Shown here in pieces: positions 38,011 to 47,138 of a DNA stretch of 64,000 bases (position 1 is the stretch's first letter; each line of letters opens with the position of its first letter). A model generated the notes under the pieces. It ran no database searches and was not told the origin of the DNA. It worked only from the letters and a program-made list of their open reading frames with translations. This DNA is from Longimicrobiales bacterium (GTDB lineage Bacteria > Gemmatimonadota > Gemmatimonadetes > Longimicrobiales > Gaopeijiaceae), in assembly GCA_028823235.1 (NCBI GenBank), contig JAPKBW010000008.1:62001-126000 (forward strand), read 5' to 3'. The position numbers and the translations under genes are program-made.

Positions 38011-39483
38011 CTATGACGACCGGTTTCGGGCCCAGTCGATGAGGTCCCGATTCGTGCTGGTCTTCTTCATTGCGCCCAGGAGATCAACCATCGCCTCCGT
38101 GGGGCCCATTCCAGCCAGCTGACGCCGCATCGCGTGAGAAACCCAGAGTTGATCGTCGTCGAGAAGGAGTTCTTCTTTCCGAGTCGCCGACCCAACGAGA
38201 TCGATCGCCGGGTAGATACGCCTGTCGGCGAGATCCCTCGACAGCACCAATTCGCTGTTCCCGGTCCCTTTGAATTCCTCGAAGATCACCTGGTCCATGC
38301 GTGATCCTGTATCTACGAGCGCAGTTCCGATGATCGTCAAAGAACCACCGCCCTGGCTGGCGGCGATCTTCCGAGCGCTGCCTAGGAATCGCTTCGGTTT
38401 CTCGAGGGCGTTGGAGTCGAGACCACCTGACATCGTCCGCCCACTACCACCCTTGAGTGAGTTATAGGCTCGAGCCATACGGGTGATCGAGTCGAGAATG
38501 ATGACGACATCTTCGCCCTGCTCCACCCGTCGGCGAGCACGTTCCAATGTCATCTCAGTGACCTGGACGTGACGCTCCGGAGGCCGGTCGAAGGTCGAAG
38601 CGATGACCTCACCGAACCCGCACTGCTCCATCTCCGTGACTTCCTCAGGACGTTCGTCCACGAGAAGAATCATGAGATGACACTCGGGATTGTTCTTGAC
38701 GATCCCCTCTGCGACAGCCTGCATGACCATAGTCTTACCGGCCTTCGCAGGAGCGACGATCATGGCTCGCTGCCCCTTTCCGAATGGGCAGAAGAGGTCG
38801 ATGACCCGGTTGGTGAACTCGGGCTCACCGCGCCAGGTGCGTCCGCACTCCAGAATCAACTGTTCGTCCGGGTGCGTTGCACTCAGGCGGCCAAACTCAG
38901 GTCGTCGGGCAGCTTCCTCAGGCGGACGGTCGTTCACCAGCGCGACGTGTGCGAGGGGCGGACTCTTGCCTGCCCGCACGGATGCCGCGACAACACCCAT
39001 GAGTTCGTCGCCGATCCTCAGACCAAACTTCTGAATGACTCGCGGCGGCACATAGATATCGTCATCACTGGGGGCGTAGCCGTAATCGCGACGGCGAACG
39101 AATCCAGAACCGGATCCTAGGACCTCGAGCAACCCGAGTGGACGGGAAAGCGCCATCAGCTCGTCGGGATCTTCGGGAAGGCCCGCCATGAGCTCGGTGT
39201 CCGACGGTCCTCCGCCGTCCACGCCACGGCCGCCACCGCCGCCACCGCCACCCTCACCGCCCTTACGGCGGCGGCCTCGACGGCGGCGCTTGTTCCGTCG
39301 AGGACGATCGCCGGCCTTGGCGGATTGATTGCCGCGACCGCGTCCCCCGGAGGAGCCACCGTCAGCTGACGCACTTTCTGTGGATGAGTTTTCCGCGGGG
39401 GCAGCAGCTTCGGAAGGCGCTGAATCAGCCGGCGGAGATTCTTTTTTTTGTGCTTCTGGTGTGTCTGACACGTATACAGCCAA
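38011..39483 (-). CDS. rho: Transcription termination factor Rho with basic, Gly-rich N-terminal extension
   Basis: This 490-residue hexameric RNA helicase ends transcripts. The RNA-binding and motor domains are complete: FGRLSATHPDEQLILE, Walker A VAPAKAGKTMVMQ (P-loop), Walker B VVIILDSITRMARAYNS, the Q-loop GSLTIIGTALVDTGSRMD and the R-loop. The first about 95 residues are an extra region: Ala/Ser/Glu-rich, then Arg/Lys-rich (RRNKRRRRGRRRKGG), then a nine-Gly run. Similar inserts are known in high-GC and actinobacterial Rho. The gene is monocistronic and convergent with the SRPBCC gene 30 bases away. Confidence 0.96.
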   Translation of the reverse strand: MAVYVSDTPEAQKKESPPADSAPSEAAAPAENSSTESASADGGSSGGRGRGNQSAKAGDRPRRNKRRRRGRRRKGGEGGGGGGGGRGVDGGGPSDTELMAGLPEDPDELMALSRPLGLLEVLGSGSGFVRRRDYGYAPSDDDIYVPPRVIQKFGLRIGDELMGVVAASVRAGKSPPLAHVALVNDRPPEEAARRPEFGRLSATHPDEQLILECGRTWRGEPEFTNRVIDLFCPFGKGQRAMIVAPAKAGKTMVMQAVAEGIVKNNPECHLMILLVDERPEEVTEMEQCGFGEVIASTFDRPPERHVQVTEMTLERARRRVEQGEDVVIILDSITRMARAYNSLKGGSGRTMSGGLDSNALEKPKRFLGSARKIAASQGGGSLTIIGTALVDTGSRMDQVIFEEFKGTGNSELVLSRDLADRRIYPAIDLVGSATRKEELLLDDDQLWVSHAMRRQLAGMGPTEAMVDLLGAMKKTSTNRDLIDWARNRSS

Positions 39484-40995: not shown

Positions 40996-41119
40996 GTTGC
41001 CGAGTGTCCCATTACCCGCTCCTGTGTCCAGGAATCGGGACATTCACCCACCTCCCACACCTAATGACATGTATCCCGTAACTCCCTGCCATACAGCGTT
41101 TTGTGCCACACGCAACCCC

Positions 41120-41138
41120 TTGGCACGCCACGTGCATT
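41120..41138 (+). promoter_or_regulatory. Candidate sigma-54 promoter (-24/-12)
   Basis: The sequence TTGGCACGCCACGTGCATT matches the sigma-54 consensus TGGCACG-N4-TTGCA at all but one base, with the invariant GG and GC exactly 12 bases apart. A start near 41147 would give a leader of about 25 bases containing AAGGAGG before the GTG at 41172. Such a promoter needs an enhancer-binding activator; none is in the window. Confidence 0.72.
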
Positions 41139-41171
41139 ATTCTCGGGTAGATTCCAGCGAAGGAGGACACG

Positions 41172-42764
41172 GTGGGTAGGACAGCCCGACTAACCGCAAT
41201 TATGGCCTTGATGGCGGCCTTCATTTCACTCTCGGCGAGCGCGCAAGTCAGCGTTGATTTTTCGCTTCCCGCAGGCACCCTGTTCACCGGGGTGTCCTTC
41301 GGAGTTGCTGGCCCAGTTCACGCAACCTCCTCGGTCTTCTTCGGTGCACCGTATGGTGAAGCGAACGGGCCCAAATACGGTGTGTACGGAAGCCCCAACT
41401 CCTACGGGAGCTGCTGGGACGCGTACTACATGTATTACGACCACTGCGTGGTGCAGACTTCCTATGCGCCCGTCTACTACTCGTACGGCGGCTGGGCCCG
41501 AAGCTGGTACGGCCATGCCGGCTACTACAGTCCCGGTTATTACCAGCCCAGTTACTACGCGTATGTCTCGGACCCGTGGGGTCCACGTTGGGGGCCGTTC
41601 TGGGCCTACGATCCGTGGGACTCGTACTGGAATAGCTATTGGGATGGCTCCTATGCAGGCTCCTGGTACGGCGGACGTTCCTCTTACGCAGCCACATACC
41701 ATGTGCCTGCCTACTACCCGAATAGCGCTACGTACTACGCAGGGAACACTCAGTACAAGGACAGCCCGGGCACTGGCACTACAGGCCGGACCGCTCGGCA
41801 CCGCACTCCCACCGCTTCACCGACCGCACCTTCCCGCACCTCAGTGGCTGCCGCGGCAAAGGCTCGCCCGCGTAGCACCACTTCAGTGAACCGGCGTGCG
41901 CCAGAAGTCGATGGCCCGGCAGGGGCCGCTCGCTCCGGGTCCGGTGCGCGATCTGCGACAGCTGGTGTGGGTTTGTCCAGGTCCGGTGGCCGCACCGGAG
42001 TGTCCGGTACCGGAACGACCGCTGGTGATCGGGCAGTTCGCACTCCAACCGTAGGCAGAAAGCCGCTTTCCGTCGCCCGGAGCAATCGCGGTGGTCCCGG
42101 CAGCCGTCCGTCAGCCGGCCTACCCCGTCGCGTGCCGACTTCAGATGGCGATGCGCGGAGCACATCAGGCACGCGAGGAAACGCGTCCAGAACCACCGGT
42201 GCCGGTAAAGGCGTCGCGCGCGCTCGTGGGACACGTGGCGGATCGCGCCCGATCTTGAATCGGCGCCCACCTGCGTCCCAGTCGGGTCAGGCCGCCCGGG
42301 CTGGATCATCGACGACCCGTTCCGGGGCGGCGGCGCGGACCACCCCTGTCCGAGAACAGGCTTCCCCGCGAGCGGGGACTTCCAGCACTCGCCCGGCTCG
42401 TGCGGGGGCCACGCCGAGCCGGGCGCCTAGCCGCACAAGGTCGTCCCCCAGGTCCAGGTCGACCCGGGCAACGACAACACGCGCTCCAGGTGCTCAGTCT
42501 GCGCCCGCTCGCGGCAGCCGTGCACGTCAGACTCCGAGCCGGCGTCCCACCCGTGTGCGCACCGTCCCCTCTCGCGGCGCGCGGAGCACACCGACCCGAG
42601 CTGCAGCCCCCAGCTCAGTTGGGAACGCTCGCTCGGCGCCCTCTAGGGCCCCTTCAGCACGCCGCACAAGCGGCTCTCCAACTGCGCGCGCGGCACCGTC
42701 CCGGCCGGCTACGGCTCCTCGGGTGGCTGCCCGCGGCGGGGGGATCGACTCGGCGTCGCAATAA
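41172..42764 (+). CDS. Secreted Tyr-rich/Arg-rich low-complexity protein
   Basis: I do not recognise this 530-residue protein. A signal peptide (core LTAIMALMAAFISLSASAQ) is followed by a domain of about 170 residues exceptionally rich in Tyr, Trp, Gly and Ser (repeats such as SYYAY, YYSPGYYQ, DSYWNSYWDGSY). From about residue 205 to the end it is Arg/Ser/Thr/Ala/Pro-rich, with many SRAPS-, TR- and RS-type repeats and almost no hydrophobic residues. It would be strongly basic and disordered. The GTG start follows a perfect AAGGAGG. The layout suggests an adhesive, matrix- or envelope-binding role. It is regulated, apparently, by sigma-54. Confidence 0.8.
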   Translation: MGRTARLTAIMALMAAFISLSASAQVSVDFSLPAGTLFTGVSFGVAGPVHATSSVFFGAPYGEANGPKYGVYGSPNSYGSCWDAYYMYYDHCVVQTSYAPVYYSYGGWARSWYGHAGYYSPGYYQPSYYAYVSDPWGPRWGPFWAYDPWDSYWNSYWDGSYAGSWYGGRSSYAATYHVPAYYPNSATYYAGNTQYKDSPGTGTTGRTARHRTPTASPTAPSRTSVAAAAKARPRSTTSVNRRAPEVDGPAGAARSGSGARSATAGVGLSRSGGRTGVSGTGTTAGDRAVRTPTVGRKPLSVARSNRGGPGSRPSAGLPRRVPTSDGDARSTSGTRGNASRTTGAGKGVARARGTRGGSRPILNRRPPASQSGQAARAGSSTTRSGAAARTTPVREQASPRAGTSSTRPARAGATPSRAPSRTRSSPRSRSTRATTTRAPGAQSAPARGSRARQTPSRRPTRVRTVPSRGARSTPTRAAAPSSVGNARSAPSRAPSARRTSGSPTARAAPSRPATAPRVAARGGGIDSASQ

Positions 42765-42778
42765 CCACTAGACGCCGG

Positions 42779-44005
42779 TCAGCGCACCCGGCTCCCGGCG
42801 ACCCAGACACCGACACAGGGATTTGCGCCGACCCAGTAAGTGAGTTCTACCGGACTCTCGATGCTCCAGGCCGCAAGGTCTGCACGCATTCCAATTTCGA
42901 GCGCCCCTCGGTCTTGGTAACCAAGAACCGGCGCCGCATTTCGAGTCATCCCGATAAGCGTCTCCTCGGGAGTCAGACCAAACAGGACACTCGCCATGTT
43001 CATGGCTAGAAGAGGCGAGGCCAATGGAGACGACCCTGGGTTCAGGTCGGTGGCTACGACTATGGGCACCCCATGCTCGCGAAATGTCGAGACGGGTGGC
43101 TTTTGCGTCTCACCCAGGTAGTAAAAAGCGCCCGGGAGAAGGACCGCTGCCGTCCCAGACGCGGCCATAGACCGCGCGCCGGGGCCTGACGCGTATTCGA
43201 GGTGATCTGCCGATCGGGCACCCAGGCGCGCCGCCAGTGCAGCTCCGCCCGAGTCAGACAGTTGGTCCGCATGGAGGCGAACACCCATCCCTAGATCAGC
43301 CCCCGTTTCGAGCACCCGGGCGCACTCTGTAGAGTTGAAAGCGATCCCCTCGCAGAACGCGTCCACCCCGTCAGCCAGACCCGCACGAGCTGCCTCAGGG
43401 ATCATCTCCTTACAGATCAGGTCGAGGTATCCCTCCCGATCGTAACGAAACTCCGGAGGAAGCGCGTGCGCAGCGAGCAATGTCGTCGAGACGGATACGC
43501 CTTGATCCGCCCCGGCGGTTTTTGCGGCGCGGAGCATTCGCAGCTCACTCTCGAGATCCAGCCCATAGCCGGACTTGATCTCGACACTCGTGCAGCCACT
43601 GTCGACCAGCCACCCGAGCCTGCGAGCCCCCGATGAGGCCAGTTCGCTGTCGCTGGCGCCCCTGGTGGCTGAAACTGAGGAGAGGATGCCGCCACCCGCT
43701 CGGGCGATTTCTTCGTAAGTTGCGCCGCCCAGCCTCTGTTCGAACTCGCTCGCCCGGTTGCCACCGAATACCAAATGCGTGTGCGCATCGATCAGGCCCG
43801 GCGTCAGCCACCCTCCACCCAAATCGAGCACCTCGTGTGCATCGGCGGCGATACCCTCAGGAGCGGCACTCTCAGATCCGATCCAAGAAATGCGTCCACC
43901 ACTCACCGCCAGGAGGCCGTTCCGGATCGTCCCGTATGGCTCCGCCGACCCAGCTGACATTGTCGCAATGTGGCAGTTCTTGACCACGAGCTCGCTGCTG
44001 ACCAA
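42779..44005 (-). CDS. hutI: Imidazolonepropionase
   Basis: This 408-residue amidohydrolase opens the ring of imidazolone-5-propionate to N-formimidoyl-L-glutamate, the third step of histidine breakdown. Metal and substrate motifs are LTPGLIDAHTHLVFGGNR (HxH), the segment EFEQRLGGATYEEIARAGGG and VATDLNPGSSP (metal Asp). It starts at a TTG, preceded by GGAGG at about 7 bases; no ATG fits. The divergent hutF start is 50 bases away, so the two share a control region. The gene is distant from hutU-hutH by one gene. Confidence 0.93.
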   Translation of the reverse strand: MVSSELVVKNCHIATMSAGSAEPYGTIRNGLLAVSGGRISWIGSESAAPEGIAADAHEVLDLGGGWLTPGLIDAHTHLVFGGNRASEFEQRLGGATYEEIARAGGGILSSVSATRGASDSELASSGARRLGWLVDSGCTSVEIKSGYGLDLESELRMLRAAKTAGADQGVSVSTTLLAAHALPPEFRYDREGYLDLICKEMIPEAARAGLADGVDAFCEGIAFNSTECARVLETGADLGMGVRLHADQLSDSGGAALAARLGARSADHLEYASGPGARSMAASGTAAVLLPGAFYYLGETQKPPVSTFREHGVPIVVATDLNPGSSPLASPLLAMNMASVLFGLTPEETLIGMTRNAAPVLGYQDRGALEIGMRADLAAWSIESPVELTYWVGANPCVGVWVAGSRVR

Positions 44006-44017
44006 ATACCCTCCTCG

Positions 44018-44047
44018 TTGACGCCGCGTCCGCCCTGAATCTACACT
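44018..44047 (+). promoter_or_regulatory. Candidate promoter of hutF (leaderless)
   Basis: A TTGACG (-35) and TACACT (-10) pair with an 18-base spacer ends 8 bases before the hutF ATG. Transcription would therefore start at or next to the start codon, and no Shine-Dalgarno lies before it. A leaderless hutF transcript is inferred. Confidence 0.6.
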
Positions 44048-44055
44048 CGCTCGAC

Positions 44056-45459
44056 ATGTCCGACCTTTTTTTCGATACTGCGTTCCTTTCGGGGAGCTGG
44101 GCCCACGATGTACGCCTCACGGTGGACAGCGGTGGGTGGATTACGTCGGTTGAGTCCGAAACGACTCCCCGGGGCGCCCGGCACTTTCGAGGTATCGCTG
44201 TCCCGGGGGTTCCCAACGTCCATTCCCACGTCTTTCAGCGGGCGATGGCCGGGCTGGCAGAGCGCGGGTCTCCATCAGGCGATTCCTTCTGGTCCTGGCG
44301 GGAGCGAATGTACGGCTTCCTTCGCACACTCGACCCGGATGCAGTCGAGGTAATCGCAGGCCAGTTGTTCTCCGAACTCCTGCGGCATGGCTTCACGTCC
44401 GTGGCCGAGTTCCACTACCTCAGAAACGACGTCCTCGGCCACGCTTATGCCGATCCGGTAGAGATGGGGCGCCGTATTTTGGCGGCAGCGGAACGTGCGG
44501 GGATGGGCATCACGATGTTGCCGACCGTCTATCGAACGTCAGACTTCGGCGGCGCGGAAGCGCAGGTCAGCCAGCGCAGATTTGTGGCATCCGTGGAGGA
44601 CCTGCTCGGCGATATAGCGGTTCTCGGGGCTGGCGCGAGCGCCGGCACGACTCGGATCGGTCTAGCCCTTCATTCGCTGCGGGCGGTCCCGCCCAAAGCA
44701 TTAACCGTCGCAGTCGAGGCTGCACGCAGCATGGACCCGGAGCTTCCCGTACACATCCACGTGGCGGAGCAGCAGAAAGAGGTCGAACGATGCCTCGAAT
44801 GGTCGGGCGCCCGGCCGGTTCAGTGGCTTCTCGATAACGCGCCGGTTGATCGGCACTGGTGCCTGATTCACGCGACCCATCTGGATGCTTCCGAGGTAGC
44901 GGGGATCGGCGCTTCGGGAGCCGTGGTCGGCCTCTGTCCGACGACGGAGGCGAATCTGGGCGACGGCATTTTTCCATTCACAGACTTTGAGCACGCGCGG
45001 GGTTCCTGGGGAATCGGGACGGATTCCCACATCGGACGCAGTCCTGTGGGTGAACTCCGGACTCTCGAATATGGGCAGCGATTGACGCTCCAGAGCCGAA
45101 ACGTGGCGGCTGGCCCCTACCACCGATCGACCGGGCGATCGCTTCTGGAGTCTGCGTGGAACGGTGGCGCTGCCGCATGTGGGCGAAGAATCGGACAGAT
45201 CGCCCCAGGCTTCCGGGCGGACGCGGTCGTGCTGGACCCGAACCACCCGTCGCTGTGCGGCCGTTCAGGAGACGACGTCCTCGATTCCTGGGTCTTTTCC
45301 GGGGATGCCACCCCTGTGTCCGACGTCATCGTCGGGGGGCGTCAGGTGGTAGAGGCGGGACGTCACGTCCTCTCCACAGAATTGTCTAAAAGGTACCGGA
45401 GCGTGGCTCATGCCTTGGTGGGAGACAACCCGCAGCTGGCCCTGAATCTGGACGAGTAG
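44056..45459 (+). CDS. hutF: Formimidoylglutamate deiminase
   Basis: This 467-residue amidohydrolase removes ammonia from N-formimidoyl-L-glutamate to give N-formyl-L-glutamate, the fourth step of the five-step Hut pathway. Motifs in order are PNVHSHVFQRAMAGLAERG (HxH, typical of HutF), HIHVAEQQKEV (metal His and Glu), LIHATHLDASEV and GTDSHIGRSPVGELRTLEYG (metal Asp). Length fits the family. It is the only plus-strand hut gene and ends 3 bases from the convergent hutU stop. The next enzyme, HutG formylglutamate deformylase, was not found in the window. Confidence 0.93.
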   Translation: MSDLFFDTAFLSGSWAHDVRLTVDSGGWITSVESETTPRGARHFRGIAVPGVPNVHSHVFQRAMAGLAERGSPSGDSFWSWRERMYGFLRTLDPDAVEVIAGQLFSELLRHGFTSVAEFHYLRNDVLGHAYADPVEMGRRILAAAERAGMGITMLPTVYRTSDFGGAEAQVSQRRFVASVEDLLGDIAVLGAGASAGTTRIGLALHSLRAVPPKALTVAVEAARSMDPELPVHIHVAEQQKEVERCLEWSGARPVQWLLDNAPVDRHWCLIHATHLDASEVAGIGASGAVVGLCPTTEANLGDGIFPFTDFEHARGSWGIGTDSHIGRSPVGELRTLEYGQRLTLQSRNVAAGPYHRSTGRSLLESAWNGGAAACGRRIGQIAPGFRADAVVLDPNHPSLCGRSGDDVLDSWVFSGDATPVSDVIVGGRQVVEAGRHVLSTELSKRYRSVAHALVGDNPQLALNLDE

Positions 45460-45461
45460 AG

Positions 45462-47138
45462 CTAGATCTCTCGTCTCATCGGTATCCGGATGCCCTCTCG
45501 CTCCGCTGTCGCTTCGGCAATCGCGTATCCGGCGTCGACGTGCCGCATGACACCGGTTCCCGGATCGTTCGTCAGTACCCGCTCGAGGCGAACGCCCATC
45601 TCAGGTGTCCCATCGGCCACGATGACCTGCCCTGCATGCAATGAATTGCCGATCCCGACTCCACCACCGTGGTGGAAAGAGACCCAACTCGCCCCGGACG
45701 CCGTATTCAGCAGCGCGTTAAGAATGGGCCAGTCGGCTACGGCATCGGATCCGTCCTTCATGGCTTCGGTTTCACGGTTGGGTGATGCGACCGAGCCGGT
45801 ATCGAGGTGATCTCGTCCGATCACGATCGGGGCGCTCACCTCACCACTCGCGACGAGGTCATTCAAGGCGAGGCCGAACCGGGCTCGCGCACCCTGTCCC
45901 AGCCAGCAGATCCGGGACGGGAGTCCTTGGAACGCCACACGCTCCTGCGCCAACCTAATCCAGCGGCAGAGGTGTTCATCCTCGGGGAACATCTCCAGGA
46001 CCAGCTCATCGGTCCGGTGGATGTCTTTCGGGTCGCCGGACAGTGCCACCCAACGGAAGGGGCCCTTCCCTTCGCAAAACAGATCCCGAATATAGGCCGG
46101 AACGAAGCCAGGATAGGAAAACGCCTCGGTGAACCCCGCGTCCTTTGCGTACCCACGCAGATTGTTGCCATAATCCACCGCAACCGCGCCGGCGTTCTGC
46201 ATGTCGACGATCGCCTCACAATGAATTCTCATCGACTTCATCGACTGCCTCAAGTACTCCTCGGCGTCGGACTCGCGCAGCACCGCGGCCTGCCCGACAC
46301 CCATGCCGGCGGGGACGTATCCGTGCACCGGGTCATGAGCGGACGTCTGATCCGTCACGATATCCGGTGTGACGCCCCTCCGAACGAGCTCCGGGAGTAC
46401 GTCGGCACAGTTCCCGACCAGTCCGATGGATAGCGCCTCGCCCGCTGTGGTGGCCTCGTTTACCCAGCGGAGTGCCTCTTCGAGGTCATGTGTCATGCGA
46501 TCGCAGTAACGGGTATCAAGCCTGCGCTGGATACGGGTCGGATCGACCTCGACGCAGAGCATGACCCCTTGGTTCATCGTCGTGGCGAGAGGCTGGGCGC
46601 CGCCCATGCCCCCCATACCCCCGGTGAGGATCCACTTACCCTTCAAAGAACCGTCGAAATGCTTGTCGGCCATCGCACCGAACGTCTCGTACGTCCCCTG
46701 TAGAATCCCTTGGGTGCCTATGTAGATCCAGGACCCGGCCGTCATCTGTCCGTACATCATCAGGCCCTTCCGCTCGAGCTCTCGGAAGTGCTCCCACGTG
46801 GCCCAGCGACCTACCAGGTTGGAGTTCGCAATGAGCACGCGAGGCGCATGTTCGTGCGTCCGAAAGATCCCCACGGGCTTCCCCGACTGCACCAAGAGTG
46901 TCTCGTCGTTCTCGAGGTCGCGAAGGGATTCGACGATGGTATCGAATGCCGCCCAACTTCGGGCAGCACGACCTGTCCCGCCGTATACAATTAGTTGGTC
47001 CGGGTGCTCGGCCACATCCGGGTCGAGGTTATTCATCAGCATCCGCAGCGCAGCCTCCTGCGCCCATCCCTTGCAACTCAGTTCGTTGCCATGCGGCGCG
47101 CGCACGGTGCGTGGATCACTCTTCGTATCTGATGTCAT
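45462..47138 (-). CDS. hutU: Urocanate hydratase
   Basis: This 558-residue NAD-dependent enzyme hydrates urocanate to imidazolone propionate, the second Hut step. Diagnostic stretches are [20 protein letters not shown] (residues about 86-105), the NAD-site loop [11 protein letters not shown] and catalytic-Cys region [13 protein letters not shown] (about 408-420). [20 protein letters not shown] and [10 protein letters not shown] close the family signature. Its ATG overlaps the hutH stop by 4 bases. The length and all landmarks are normal. Confidence 0.96.

Follow-up and report, generated by a model that had tools for sequence, protein, structure and literature searches.

The gene for a secreted protein of 530 amino acids, located on the plus strand at 41172..42764 of the window (the whole 64,000-nucleotide stretch of Longimicrobiales DNA analyzed), is in our estimate, with a probability of roughly 85%, transcribed from a genuine enhancer-dependent sigma-54 promoter that belongs to a regulon and would be activated, by the scheme proposed below, most probably by an enhancer-binding protein (EBP) of the C15 type. 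A preliminary description had proposed a sigma-54 promoter at this position; that observation holds and extends further than first reported, to a conserved enhancer and to a composite of enhancer and promoter that recurs across the order.

Promoter element and upstream sites

The -24/-12 element TGGCACGCCACGTGCA (41121-41136, plus strand) has a single mismatch to TGGCAC-N5-TTGCW, as originally described, and consists of a -24 element, TGGCAC (41121..41126, plus strand), and a -12 element, GTGCA (41132..41136, plus strand), with GG at -25/-24 and GC at -13/-12 spaced by ten bases, the arrangement of sigma-54 promoters. Consensus geometry, counted from the -12 position, predicts a transcription start at the G at 41147 (plus strand), and the short leader already noted does carry AAGGAGG at 41160..41166 (plus strand), five bases before the GTG start codon at 41172. 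The match by itself is not significant. When up to two mismatches were allowed, 16 -24/-12 matches were found in the window versus 23.4 expected from shuffles, and the genome contains 16 copies of TGGCACN6TGCW versus 31 of the reversed pattern; both frequencies are at chance level, and the trust initially placed in the bare match was not warranted.

Homologues of the gene were identified by protein search in 10/59 genomes (its own, seven of the same genus, and two of the same family). At all ten loci, the best sigma-54-like element lies directly before the Shine-Dalgarno sequence and reads YGGCAY-N6-TGCM, with YGGCAY at -24 and NTGCM at -12 in every case (at L011, the true start lies upstream of the matched part, and the element is then in register). 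The upstream activator site expected of a sigma-54 promoter, which the preliminary description had proposed to look for but overlooked, is present as a conserved palindrome, TGTCCAGGAATCGGGACA (TGTCY-N8-RGACA; 41025..41042, plus strand), a predicted activator site centered at about -113 from the predicted start. The palindrome begins 95 to 97 bp upstream of the element in 10/10 loci and has no mismatch in five, one in three, and two in two of them, while the DNA flanking it is mostly unalignable. Because the element is conserved together with an enhancer at a fixed distance upstream, we consider the promoter to be real. The frequencies at or below control levels in window and genome would also be expected if the match were fortuitous and the gene were under a housekeeping or ECF promoter; the retention of the element in 10/10 homologues amid unalignable flanks and the order-wide enrichment of the composite (see below) leave this explanation a negligible probability, and a chance match was rejected on the conservation of element and enhancer.

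Enhancer and promoter were combined into one composite pattern, TGTC-N10-GACA-N74..82-GGCAY-N6-TGC, which was searched for in 154 genomes of the order and gave 52 matches in 46 genomes, compared with 8 matches for the reversed pattern. All but one of the matches (51/52) fell in family f1 (45/121 genomes), and the remaining one was found in the other two families (1/33 genomes). Positions left free by the pattern were biased as well: C at position 5 and G at position 14 of the palindrome were each present in 41/52 composites, T preceded GGCAY in 34/52, and G followed it in 41/52.

Two further sites lie in the same control region, which starts after the end of a class-V aminotransferase gene (40995) and is contained within 176 bases. 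A distal enhancer half-site, TGTCC (41005..41009, plus strand), is found 20 bp upstream of the palindrome and recurs about 20 bp further up at several of the ten homologous loci; TGTC 17 to 24 bp 5' of the palindrome is present in 30/49 composites versus 2/49 for a control stretch. The IHF core consensus is YAR-N4-TTR, and an IHF-like site of this form, CAGCGTTTTG (41094..41103, plus strand), places by sequence an IHF core between enhancer and promoter, as in an IHF-bent promoter. Counted from the element, YAR-N4-TTR was located at -28 to -26 in 25/49 composites, compared with 0.9 (at most 6) in a shuffle control covering -36 to -24. (Both counts are based on the 52 composites minus L047, L156, and L143.) The genome contains two genes of the HU/IHF family, which may encode either HU or IHF. 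An inverted repeat, GTGCCA/TGGCAC, at 41103-41126 was noticed by eye and was not evident among the homologues.

Predicted target genes and the ECF sigma operon

A start codon follows the composite at 20 to 60 nt in 45/52 cases, and all 45 of the corresponding products have a hydrophobic N terminus; aromatic residues make up at least 20% of the sequence in 32/45. The products are mainly aromatic-rich proteins with Arg-rich tails and also include beta-barrels and lipoproteins, such as an outer-membrane beta-barrel at L145 (PF13505, 29.7 bits; cutoff, 28.7) and a lipoprotein-like product with a weak fn3 match below the cutoff at L064. The composites at L047 and L156 look like chance matches, the one at L055, before a gene for an MscS-like membrane protein, may be another, and no usable frame follows the composite at L063. 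In genome G138 (L143:1257-1480, contig C7), enhancer, sigma-54 element, and the GTGCGTACC start are kept beside rho and the secreted-protein gene is gone, so that this composite is a promoter relic. Sigma-54-like sites in EBP-poor genomes were mostly located within genes. Two other sigma-54-like elements of the genome under study lie near gene starts without a TGTC/GACA enhancer, at G000:C15:48108 (L025; full consensus) and at G000:C6:89201 (L019).

One of the 16 TGGCACN6TGCW sites of the genome (G000:C9:112910; L022) sits before an ECF sigma gene (Sigma70_r2, Sigma70_r4_2), which is followed by a zf-HC2 anti-sigma gene, and an enhancer of the same type is found at -58 of this promoter. Since the ECF promoter carries the enhancer too, one enhancer type would drive both this operon and the secreted-protein gene, each from a different distance. 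Searching 30 chosen genomes for the ECF locus gave a match in 29, and with the locus of the genome itself 30 loci were compared, of which 27 have a sigma-54 element, the last candidate element being taken at each locus. When the three loci without the element were excluded, [CT]GTC-N10-GAC[AG] was present upstream of the element in 24/27 promoters, versus 0.23 (at most 3) in the shuffle control. The enhancer was positioned at -56 to -59 or -68/-70 at 22 loci and at -114 in G093; in G090 it lies at -58 in the exact TGTCC-N8-GGACA form. A distal TGTC was detected 21 to 24 bp above the core in 23 of the 27 promoters. The ECF promoter of G138 retains CGTCACTCCCAGTGGATG, a single base off the enhancer core.

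The enhancer would be common to a limited set of genes for exported proteins and, in the majority of the genomes compared, to the ECF sigma/anti-sigma operon. Through this shared enhancer, a single signal would control envelope components and, at the same time, a second sigma factor. A conserved switch before genes for secreted and other cell-surface proteins points to a shared, previously undescribed program for building the outer surface.

RpoN and the candidate activators

The genome was searched for rpoN, as had been proposed at the outset, and the gene was found at G000:C8:32218-33678 (403.9 bits; cutoff, 277.35), with activator-interacting, core-binding, and DNA-binding domains. Together with the conserved element and enhancer, its presence supports sigma-54 dependence at the level of sequence. 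In the proposed mechanism, RpoN-RNA polymerase would be held at -24/-12 as a closed complex, and the activator, as a dimer or oligomer, would bind both the palindrome (TGTCY-N8-RGACA) and the half-site lying 20 bp further upstream. Bending of the DNA at the IHF-like site would loop the activator onto the polymerase, and ATP hydrolysis by the activator would then open the promoter.

Three intact EBPs and a broken one are encoded in the genome. The broken one is a decayed gene (G000:C34:10977-11340; L031 and L032) with a Fis-type C terminus and broken frames, in which GAFTGA has become GSLAGA. The C15-type EBP (G000:C15:12668-14257) has an AAA+ sigma-54 domain (PF00158, 236.1 bits) containing GAFTGA and a Fis-type helix-turn-helix (HTH_8, 50.7 bits), the makeup of an enhancer-binding protein. 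A model of its N-terminal domain (mean pLDDT, 83.8) matched receivers in the PDB (best E value, 3.4e-04; TM score, about 0.6 to 0.7), and no Response_reg match was found up to an E value of 0.01. The position that we take to be that of the phospho-Asp is occupied by a Thr in 22/22 sequences, and Thr-His occupies the presumed position of the acidic pair, which leaves the modeled receiver fold without a phosphorylatable Asp. With Thr in place of the phospho-Asp, the C15-type EBP would therefore not be switched by phosphorylation. Atypical receivers that act independently of phosphorylation (Helicobacter pylori HP1043; 2pln and 2hqr) were among the fold-search matches and resemble this N-terminal domain; in contrast to them, the C15-type domain is part of a protein that also contains an AAA+ sigma-54 activator domain.

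Co-occurrence alone distinguishes poorly between activators that are both near universal, the C15 type being present in 142/154 genomes, including most of those free of the composite, and the C3 type in 141/154. The C15 type was present in 45/46 composite-bearing genomes and was not found in the carrier G071. It is the sole EBP of G138, although an elimination of activators based on this genome alone is weakened, since the gene behind its relic composite has been lost. The C35 type was rejected as the activator, being absent from the composite carriers G133 and G093. G026 and G095 encode EBPs of the C15 and C35 types, yet their ECF promoters have no recognizable enhancer. No palindrome was found near EBP genes in the 73 loci searched. 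We favor the C15-type EBP as the probable activator because it is present in 45/46 carriers and is the only EBP of G138, whereas the C35 type is missing from two carriers and the C3 type lacks a clear orthologue in the carrier G134.

The C3-type EBP (G000:C3:173269-174627) is an NtrX-like response regulator that scored 453.5 bits, under the cutoff of 600. If it were the activator, with promoter and enhancer unchanged, the regulon would be under phosphorelay control. Its intact receiver match and HTH_8 match are compatible with such a role, as are its presence in the composite carriers G133 and G093 and the lack of both this EBP and the composite in the g14 genomes G026, G094, and G095. In G134 (97% complete), however, it lacks a clear orthologue, the best E value there being 2.8e-123 compared with 1e-223 to 1e-243 in four sisters; G134 carries the composite, the intact gene, and the ECF enhancer, and its C1 EBP is of the C35 type. 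The NtrX-like EBP is also absent from G138, with its near version of the enhancer at the ECF promoter, and its sigma-54 contact loop is GSFTGA, although the same loop is found in some C15-type proteins. We consider it unlikely that this regulator is the activator. A regulator other than an EBP, either a repressor or a second activator, might instead bind the palindrome, which would then merely lie near sigma-54 promoters; the palindrome is a predicted EBP site, and it occurs at five other places in the genome, none of which was found to be a promoter. Its near-fixed distance to -24/-12 in 52 composites and its recurrence before the ECF operon, at a second near-fixed distance, argue against this. 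In addition, sigma-54 promoters require an EBP, for which the palindrome is the sole conserved upstream site seen. We consider a non-EBP regulator less probable still than the NtrX-like one.

The secreted protein and related systems

The 530-amino-acid protein begins with a signal-peptide-like stretch (amino acids 1 to 24), followed by an acidic Tyr/Trp/Gly-rich block (amino acids 25 to 200; 176 residues, 18% Tyr and 6% Trp) and an Arg/Ala/Ser/Thr/Pro-rich tail (amino acids 201 to 530; 330 residues, 18.5% Arg and a net charge of +57). Signal peptide, tail, and a pI of 11.5 for the whole protein bear out the earlier view of a secreted, basic, low-complexity product. No match was found in Pfam, NCBIfam, or PHROGs, and the AlphaFold model of the aromatic domain was poorly folded (mean pLDDT, 40.6), with no relative in the PDB (best E value, 0.5). 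A Tyr-rich block followed by an Arg-rich disordered tail resembles sticker-type condensing proteins. This architecture, together with the signal for export and the envelope genes that share the enhancer, makes a role at the surface or in a matrix the most likely one for the product. Of the earlier suggestion of a matrix, adhesin, or envelope component, the envelope link is strengthened by the secreted proteins, beta-barrels, and lipoproteins among the cotargets, whereas the matrix or adhesin part found no family or structure match in its support. A bolder reading, possible if doubtful, is that a phosphorylation-independent pseudo-receiver sigma-54 activator runs a family-wide surface program in which two-block exported sticker polymers condense into an extracellular matrix and an ECF sigma factor adapts the envelope. 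If so, fast-evolving exported proteins would be held under a conserved switch while their sequences drifted almost past recognition.

The protein search missed G001, G003, and G008, and the composite is present in all three despite the missed match, so that the promoter may serve as a handle for finding homologous surface proteins after their sequences have diverged. In G008 the composite precedes a beta-barrel gene. In G001 and G003, strongly diverged secreted proteins with Arg-rich tails lie under the composite promoter (L067 and L069). Many homologues (L007, L008, L042, L044, L046, L050, L056, L060, L070, and L158) end in RRPGG or RRGG, their tails being otherwise of low complexity, and this ending may serve for sorting or anchoring. 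It is absent from the window protein, which ends in GGGIDSASQ.

Gemmatimonadota are widespread and poorly studied. Among the open-access matches listed, there was no paper on a sigma-54 promoter or activator of this phylum beyond the listing in Francke 2011, which presents sigma-54 as a controller of the bacterial exterior, a tendency seen across phyla (PMC3162934). What is predicted here for Gemmatimonadota follows the general theme of envelope targets but is specific in its enhancer, its proposed activator, and the genes it would control, all of which can be tested.

The closest parallel is the PEP-CTERM/PrsK-PrsR sigma-54 regulon of Proteobacteria, for which Haft 2006 (PMC1569441) describes exported proteins encoded mostly in single-gene operons, promoters composed of a 17-nt upstream motif that ends in TTTACA, a spacer of 62.8 ± 10.6 nt, and a -24/-12 motif, and a predicted Fis-type EBP. 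The two systems share exported targets, the order of upstream motif, spacer, and -24/-12 motif, and a Fis-type EBP. The regulon described here is a sigma-54 "exterior" regulon that resembles the PEP-CTERM/PrsR one and has its own enhancer (TGTCY-N8-RGACA), spacing (74 to 82 nt), and targets, the latter including an ECF operon that shares the enhancer. Identity with the PEP-CTERM system was rejected: no PEP-CTERM sorting signal was found in the product with Pfam or NCBIfam, and the three intact EBPs (318.4, 362.2, and 400.6 bits) stayed below the PrsR cutoff (TIGR02915, 502.6 bits). The pepA gene of Aquincola tertiaricarbonis, which encodes an exported protein required for flocs and has a mapped RpoN-dependent promoter (TGGCAC/CTGCTT; PMC9850573), is similar in that its -12 box lacks the usual first T, as does the element in the window, and different in that it encodes a PEP-CTERM protein and belongs to another phylum. 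In Pseudomonas syringae, the HrpRS/sigma-54/HrpL cascade is reported likewise to place an ECF sigma gene under a sigma-54 promoter (PMC5263251); in contrast to that cascade, a zf-HC2 anti-sigma gene follows here, and no link to a secretion system was seen.

Elsewhere in the window, the minus strand at 38011-39483 carries what is by sequence a rho gene, whose product has a basic N-terminal extension of low complexity that is rich in Gly and Arg, and the genes directly 3' of the secreted-protein gene (42779-47138) resemble those of histidine utilization (hutI, formimidoylglutamate deiminase, and hutU).
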